From contig JAENYT010000005.1 of the NCBI GenBank assembly GCA_016841665.1, positions 1 to 64,000 on the forward strand: a DNA stretch of 64,000 nucleotides, given 5' to 3'. Shown here piece after piece: positions 45,696-46,975 of this stretch. The position numbers and the translations under genes were made by a program. Origin of the DNA: Methanobacteriota archaeon. Lineage in GTDB: Archaea > Halobacteriota > Methanomicrobia > Methanomicrobiales > Methanomicrobiaceae. Within the stretch, counting starts at the first letter, position 1. Every line of letters starts with the position of its first letter. Below the pieces are notes generated by a model. That model saw nothing but the letters and a program-made list of their open reading frames with translations, made no database searches and was not told where the DNA came from.

Positions 45696-45713
45696 ATTCC
45701 TGCAACAACCTTG

Positions 45714-46043
45714 ATGCAGGTGACACCGAATACGTCTGGAACCGCGGGATTTTCCCAAAAAGACGCAACAATAACGATAGAGATAGAGATCTCAGGTTAT
45801 GTCCAGAATGTCGGGTTCCGTGCATGTGCCAGGAAAATCGCCACGCACCTGGGTGTCATGGGCGAGGTCATGAACCTTGAGTGCGGTGCCGTGCTCATCA
45901 CCGCGAGCGGGGAGACCTTCGTCCTCGAAAAATTCATCTCCATGCTCTACGGATGCCCCCGGGCGGTGATACGGGGCATCAGGACAAAAGAGGTGGAACC
46001 AAGGATTTTTTCTGAATTCTCGGTGAGAAGAGGTCTTTTTTAG
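45714..46043 (+). CDS. Acylphosphatase-like protein
   Basis: The 109-residue protein has an approximately 20-residue extension and then the acylphosphatase fold: IEISGYVQNVGFRACARKIATHLGV, GEVMNLECGAVLITASGE. The catalytic Arg (VGFR) and Asn (VMNL) are present; the usual VQGVGFR reads VQNVGFR. Family members hydrolyse acyl phosphates such as carbamoyl phosphate, or act as domains of HypF. Start is uncertain: ATG 45714 directly follows a TTG (45711). Its stop overlaps the stop of the convergent Cas1 gene by four bases. Confidence 0.75.
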   Translation: MQVTPNTSGTAGFSQKDATITIEIEISGYVQNVGFRACARKIATHLGVMGEVMNLECGAVLITASGETFVLEKFISMLYGCPRAVIRGIRTKEVEPRIFSEFSVRRGLF

Positions 46044-46975
46044 TATATAAGGTGCAGTTCCTTGGTTCCCATGATGTACTCAAGGTAGTGGGCGCAGTTT
46101 GCATTGAGCGTTTCCTGGTCGATTGTTTCATGAAGCCTGGCGATGAGACGCCCTACCAGATCCTCGGACAGGTGGCAGCGTTCGCCGCTCACCTCGTAAT
46201 CGGCATCGCAAATCCCCCCGGCCGCCACGGAAAAGACGACCTCATCGACCATCCGCGGCTTCTGAGGGTCGATGAGGTCATTGACCAGGGCACATTCACC
46301 CTGGTGGAGGGCGCCGATGCCGGGATGCAATCCGGCTCCGATGACCGACACACAGCAGTTCCCGAAGAGCAGCGCATACCCGAGGGAGAGCATCGCGTTG
46401 ACGGGATCACGGTGGGGCCTTGATGCCCGCCGGTGAAACCCGAGTTCGGGAGGGAGAGTGCGGGCCATGATCTCGTAGTACATGTCGAGGGTGAGCCTGT
46501 GCATGCGCCGCAATTCGTCCAGTTTGATCAGGAACTCGAGCTGGTCCAGCGACTCGTGCAGGAACTCTTCCTCCCCCTGGTAGAACAGGCTGCGCCGCAG
46601 GGCCTCCCCCCGCTTTTCAATGCTCATGAGGCGGGCTTTAAGCGAATTTTGTGCCGCGAGCACGGCGGCGGAGTACGCGGGCGTATGCTTCTGCCGCTCA
46701 TGGATCTCCGCCTCCCCGTCATCGCCGAAACCACGCAGGATGGCGGTCGGCGTCCCGTCCGCATCGAAAAAGGTGATTGCGGCGCCGGATTTGAGCAGAT
46801 GGGTGATCACCGAGGTGTGCATGGTATGCCCCCCCACCACGAGCAGGTGGCGAAGCCTGGAGATGGGGTACTCACGGACCTCCCCGCGGTGTCGGATGGT
46901 GAGCGTGGTGGGCGTGGACCTGATATGGCTCCCGAACCCTGCGACAACAAGCCAGGGATAGTTGGACTGTGACAT
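46040..46975 (-). CDS. cas1: Stand-alone Cas1-family protein
   Basis: The 311-residue protein has the Cas1 two-domain plan. An N-terminal beta domain carries WLVVAGFGSHIRSTPTTLTI, LLVVGGHTMHTSVITHLL and AAITFFDADGTPTAIL. A helical domain carries DPVNAMLSLGYALLFG and GLHPGIGALHQGECALVNDL. By hand alignment His224 and Asp233/Asp236 match metal ligands, but the usual catalytic Glu (EG...Y helix) appears to be His159 (LRRMHRLTLDMYY). No cas2, other cas gene or CRISPR array occurs in the window. It is divergent from the deiminase gene and convergent with acylphosphatase. It may be an integrase-like DNA enzyme outside immunity. Confidence 0.85.
   Translation of the reverse strand: MSQSNYPWLVVAGFGSHIRSTPTTLTIRHRGEVREYPISRLRHLLVVGGHTMHTSVITHLLKSGAAITFFDADGTPTAILRGFGDDGEAEIHERQKHTPAYSAAVLAAQNSLKARLMSIEKRGEALRRSLFYQGEEEFLHESLDQLEFLIKLDELRRMHRLTLDMYYEIMARTLPPELGFHRRASRPHRDPVNAMLSLGYALLFGNCCVSVIGAGLHPGIGALHQGECALVNDLIDPQKPRMVDEVVFSVAAGGICDADYEVSGERCHLSEDLVGRLIARLHETIDQETLNANCAHYLEYIMGTKELHLIY

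Follow-up and report, generated by a model that had tools for sequence, protein, structure and literature searches.

A stand-alone Cas1 homologue with an incomplete metal site is retained across Methanomicrobiales, mostly beside a convergent acylphosphatase gene

The window, i.e., the whole stretch of 64,000 nucleotides (64 kb) that was analysed, encodes a solo Cas1 homologue whose lineage is distinct from the CRISPR Cas1s sampled and has been fixed by vertical descent in the order Methanomicrobiales. Its incomplete metal site is a family-wide property and nothing peculiar to the window genome, and the protein is not tied to CRISPR. With the catalytic set incomplete, the protein counts as a Cas1 homologue whose activity as a Cas1 endonuclease/integrase is doubtful. 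The features concerned are as follows, with positions counted along the window.

45711..46043 (+ strand): acylphosphatase (PF00708, 53.6 bits), convergent with cas1 with a 4-bp overlap at the 3' ends; start codon uncertain
46040..46975 (- strand): 311-aa protein best placed in Cas1-solo group 1 (coding part 46043-46975, stop codon 46040-46042), from the open reading frame, profiles, AlphaFold2 and Foldseek
46499..46501 (- strand): His159 codon, aligned with the catalytic Glu (E. coli Cas1 E141)
46304..46306 (- strand): His224 codon, aligned with E. coli H208; only 75/139 orthologues have His
46277..46279 (- strand): Asp233 codon, aligned with E. coli D218; 139/139 orthologues have Asp
46268..46270 (- strand): Asp236 codon, aligned with E. 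coli D221; of 139 orthologues, 70 have Glu, 61 Asp and 8 another residue

The open reading frame at 46040-46975 on the reverse strand was recognised as a full-length Cas1 by Pfam PF01867 (168 bits, E 3e-49, against a cut-off of 22.3 bits) and scored 121 bits against NCBIfam TIGR00287. Its AlphaFold2 model had a pLDDT of 94 and a pTM of 0.92, and Foldseek matched the model to solved Cas1 structures and to a casposase at a TM of about 0.8, including Archaeoglobus Cas1 (4n06; E 7e-19, TM 0.83) and a casposase with DNA (6opm_C; TM 0.84). The whole Cas1 fold is predicted to be kept in the window protein. An earlier note on this DNA had described a full-length Cas1 homologue at this position; the profile scores and the recovered fold both agree with that description.

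At E <= 1e-25, the solo gene was found in 217 of 232 genomes of Methanomicrobiales, and it was present in 133 of the 135 near-complete ones, defined by a completeness of 90% or more and a contamination of 5% or less. When the phylum was sampled evenly, 25/25 Methanomicrobiales and 0/123 others had the gene. Of the 80 top-ranking loci in the named collection, 79 had titles that fit Methanomicrobiales, some of them just 'Euryarchaeota archaeon'. The sole misfit (L283, DFYU01000109.1) was titled Geobacter sp. UBA4074, and its match statistics were those of a match titled Methanoregula; this contig is probably a mis-binned archaeal one carrying a Methanoregula-like solo Cas1. A search of viral contigs for relatives of the solo protein confirmed none. 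The gene was nearly always single copy. When 59 solo proteins were placed in one tree with 22 CRISPR Cas1, the solo sequences formed a single clade (SH-aLRT 94) that largely tracked taxonomic families, and a tree with 139 solo sequences agreed with it.

The helix carrying the catalytic Glu was free of gaps in every row of the alignment with CRISPR Cas1 from Methanomicrobiales, and this alignment matches the hand alignment of the earlier note, which had put His159 in the Glu column and considered His224 and Asp233/236 kept. The 22 CRISPR Cas1 of the order all had Glu, His and Asp in the first three catalytic columns and Glu (17) or Asp (5) in the fourth, whereas only 1 of the 139 solo orthologues had a complete Glu-His-Asp-acid set. 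In these orthologues, the Glu column (159) contained His in 84, Ser in 19, Phe in 8, Gln and Tyr in 7 each, Glu in 6, Ala in 3, Asn and Asp in 2 each, and Leu in 1, so that an acidic residue occupied the position in 8/139. The His column (224) contained His in 75, Arg in 20, Asn in 14, Ser and Tyr in 9 each, Thr in 5, Lys in 3, Gln in 2, and Phe and Ala in 1 each. Asp filled the first Asp column (233) in all 139, and the second acidic column (236) contained Glu in 70, Asp in 61, Asn in 4, Ala in 3 and Gly in 1. Glu at column 159 was absent from the first 59 orthologues and appeared in six once 80 more were added. The sole orthologue with the full Glu-His-Asp-Glu set was L136 (G131:C333); its three genus mates (L154-L156) retained the Glu but carried Asn or Lys in the His column.

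On the tree with 139 solo sequences, column 159 changed letter 22 times, with His as the inferred ancestral state, and column 224 switched between His and non-His 21 times; both columns were more variable than the median one (58th and 62nd percentile, respectively). Since His159 occurs in 84/139 orthologues, the His224 equivalent is gone in 64/139, and both columns exceed the median variability, the Glu/His metal site reflects relaxed constraint and drift, with no conserved new ligand set. The earlier note was right that the metal site is altered, His standing at position 159 where 22/22 CRISPR Cas1 have Glu. Its further suggestion, that the Glu-to-His change points to a different metal chemistry, found no support in these counts, and the check that it had named, conservation of His159 across Methanomicrobiales, returned a variable column. 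A new metal site involving His159 is rejected on this variability among the 139 orthologues.

Other parts of the protein were strictly kept. Eleven positions were identical in all 139 solo proteins (W8, G15, G48, E135, R157, Y166, E168, R172, D233, D244 and C267). D233 is common to all the CRISPR Cas1, and D244 and Y166 to most of them, while R157, W8, E135, R172 and C267 are specific to the solo proteins; at position 157, 21 of 22 CRISPR Cas1 had Gly. Position 160 was likewise Gly in CRISPR Cas1 and was Arg or Lys in 113/139 solo proteins, which together with R157 (139/139) places extra positive charge beside the old metal site. Across ten related solo pairs, dN/dS was 0.05-0.19, indicating purifying selection. 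Reading frames were intact in the listed solo matches with one exception, a 59%-complete MAG (G027) in which solo cas1 (L093, G027:C6) was split in two frames by a frameshift or an assembly error.

In the window, the neighbours of solo cas1 encode the acylphosphatase, a phosphoglucosamine mutase-type enzyme, MobB-MoaE, an arginine deiminase-type protein and a response regulator. In most genomes, the solo gene stands alone, its upstream neighbour being usually divergent and its downstream neighbour convergent. An acylphosphatase gene lay directly downstream, tail to tail, at 127 of 140 loci, comprising 57 of 59 loci, 69 of 80 further loci (1 of the 11 misses was cut by a contig end) and the window. 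Regarding the spacing in the 57 paired loci, the two genes overlapped at their 3' ends in 26 and were up to 334 bp apart in the others. Of the 47 loci that extended for 5 kb or more on both sides, 45 had the acylphosphatase nearby, and each of the other neighbours tested was near at 28 or fewer. The pair was absent from the sampled members of genera g21, g37, g30 and g34 and from one genome of f3. G127 and G162, the two near-complete genomes that lack solo Cas1, likewise showed no paired-type acylphosphatase, as would be expected if both genes had been lost together or the assembly had a gap. All 57 paired acylphosphatases had the catalytic Arg and Asn as well as two Cys (in RAC and CPR motifs). 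Because the genes converge, they do not form an operon, and a functional link between solo Cas1 and the acylphosphatase is only suggested. A literature search for acylphosphatase linked with cas1, and for inactive Cas1, returned nothing relevant; with no published mention found, this neighbour is apparently an unpublished feature of the family.

The best explanation, which we consider probable, is that a Cas1-fold, probably nucleic-acid-binding and non-integrating protein was exapted once in the ancestor of Methanomicrobiales. A Cas1 lineage would have been recruited there a single time and then descended vertically, and its product would no longer act as a Cas1 integrase or nuclease. The protein would still form a Cas1-type dimer, and its retained Arg/Asn/Asp/Tyr core, with the added arginines adjoining the old metal site, would let it bind nucleic acid (ends or branched DNA); we infer such binding from the predicted fold and the residues kept. 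It may serve some core process of Methanomicrobiales by binding DNA or RNA in a structural or regulatory capacity. Non-catalytic Cas1 subunits already occur next to catalytic ones in the integration complexes of Cas1 and casposases (PMC6977970), which makes a role in binding alone a small step. The full catalytic set of L136 and the acidic residues found at the Glu position in 8/139 orthologues are points against this explanation, and most of the remaining probability goes to an active site that has been rebuilt or a metal site that has been weakened.

A rebuilt site would make solo Cas1 an enzyme of changed chemistry, with a new catalytic centre formed by E135, R157, E168, R172, H50, R266 and C267 together with D233 and D244. 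The 11 positions invariant in 139 proteins, several of them charged and not conserved in CRISPR Cas1 (W8, E135, R157, R172 and C267), are in keeping with such a centre, but they are equally explained by folding, dimerisation or binding, and along the chain they are scattered from the N-terminal sheet through the helices to the C-terminal hairpin; we regard this explanation as unlikely. A more far-reaching proposal, an order-specific core protein derived from a former integrase in which the invariant set would replace the metal site, confer a new activity and be tied functionally to a dedicated acylphosphatase with two invariant Cys that stayed tail to tail with it throughout the families of the order, appears no more probable than the new centre itself.

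With Asp233 invariant and position 236 acidic in 131/139 orthologues, a weakened or one-metal site may persist, and another acidic residue, E168 or D244, might fill it. These two columns are also what would favour an active Cas1-type nuclease able to do without the Glu, in which D233 and D236 would act with water or a His ligand. However, Ala at any of the four positions abolishes the nuclease activity of E. coli Cas1 (cited in PMC4046053), and the Glu and His columns do not regularly supply a metal ligand, as Phe, Tyr, Ala and Ser occur in them. A Glu-less nuclease is likewise unlikely, slightly more so than the new catalytic centre.

The genomic context also bears on whether the protein could serve CRISPR adaptation. 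A script able to pick up arrays of 31, 81 and 144 repeats at other loci found no array-like repeats in the 64-kb window, and no direct-repeat family was found within 13 kb around solo cas1. Together with the absence of cas genes among the neighbours examined, this upholds the earlier note's statement that the window offers no CRISPR context. The genome-wide check for arrays and cas2 that it had named revealed two cas1-cas2 pairs in the window genome, on C4 and C21, both with Cas1 proteins that retain the catalytic residues, and a 31-repeat CRISPR array near the C21 pair (L295 11672-13903, G000:C21). A CRISPR locus lacking its own Cas1 and borrowing the solo protein is disfavoured by these two pairs with intact sites.

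In 19 of 60 Methanomicrobiales genomes, the solo gene was the only Cas1, and 11 of these 19 were at least 98% complete. Cas2 of PF09827, a profile that may miss type I-E Cas2, was found in 0/11 of the latter; because they have no other Cas1, solo-only genomes lack an adaptation module whatever PF09827 covers. A role as partner or regulator of the CRISPR Cas1 that the cell also encodes, such as the non-catalytic subunit of a mixed Cas1 dimer, would be consistent with the retained fold and with the two cas1-cas2 pairs of the window genome. This role is improbable, given at least 11 genomes, 98% or more complete, without another Cas1 or PF09827 Cas2, and given that the relatives' loci examined show no cas locus beside the solo gene.

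Several Methanomicrobiales genomes also encode a type I-E-like Cas1 beside arrays of up to 144 repeats (L109-L113). Weak Cas1 matches of about 300 aa in relatives were considered as casposases and rejected, as they are type I-E-like Cas1 adjoining arrays.

A functionless, decaying remnant, in line with the published suggestion that the group 1 genes are probably vestigial, their catalytic residues not being conserved (PMC9755687), is very improbable in view of the retention in 133/135 near-complete genomes, the dN/dS of 0.05-0.19, the invariant residues, and frames that are intact in the listed matches but for the split copy in the 59%-complete MAG.

A Cas1 that is probably unable to integrate DNA and yet is kept order-wide would show that the Cas1 fold can be recruited for work unrelated to immunity or transposition. 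Although described a decade ago, the group was set aside as inactive or vestigial. With the retention, purifying selection, invariant set and acylphosphatase neighbour, its function can now be asked about concretely and tested in cultured genera of Methanomicrobiales, such as Methanoculleus, Methanogenium and Methanocalculus.

Compared with known systems, solo Cas1 shares with CRISPR Cas1 of several type I families the PF01867/TIGR00287 homology, the fold and the conserved R183, D190, N193, G221 and D233. The two differ in that the set of Glu, His, Asp and Asp/Glu is complete in all 22 CRISPR Cas1 of the order, as against 1/139 solo proteins, and in that the solo gene has no Cas2 or array. With casposases (Cas1-solo group 2, encoded by casposons), the window protein shares the Cas1 fold (TM 0.84 to 6opm) and the absence of Cas2. 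Casposases, however, retain every catalytic residue and sit with PolB in mobile elements, whereas the window gene has lost residues, is vertically inherited and has no PolB among the neighbouring proteins examined, at 43.5-49.5 kb. The earlier note had likewise seen no casposon-type polymerase, and it also mentioned seeing no terminal repeats. The four catalytic residues strictly conserved in casposases are not conserved in solo Cas1, and casposase identity is rejected on the residues and the neighbours examined.

The closest known system is Cas1-solo group 1, one of the two groups described by Krupovic 2014, citing Makarova 2013 (PMC4046053). That group was reported as confined to Methanomicrobiales, without horizontal transfer and with no member having the full active-site residues, and it was set aside by the authors, who deemed activity unlikely (PMC4046053). 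The probable placement of the window gene in this group is based on its order, uniqueness and residue pattern, and bears out the earlier note's view of it as a stand-alone Cas1 of a kind known in methanogens. Like the published members, the window gene and its relatives lie outside CRISPR-cas loci, in a clade that is largely ordered by family and restricted to Methanomicrobiales (133/135 near-complete genomes, against 0/123 others in the phylum sample), with no sign of horizontal transfer; the catalytic residues are incomplete, the window protein lacking the Glu and 138/139 orthologues the full set. Nothing was found that separates the window gene from the group. Overall, the family has been known since 2013-2014 and the window gene is a further record of it; this analysis widens the group to 217 genomes and adds near-universality in the order, drift of the old site in place of a Glu-to-His design, an invariant set of residues and the acylphosphatase neighbour.
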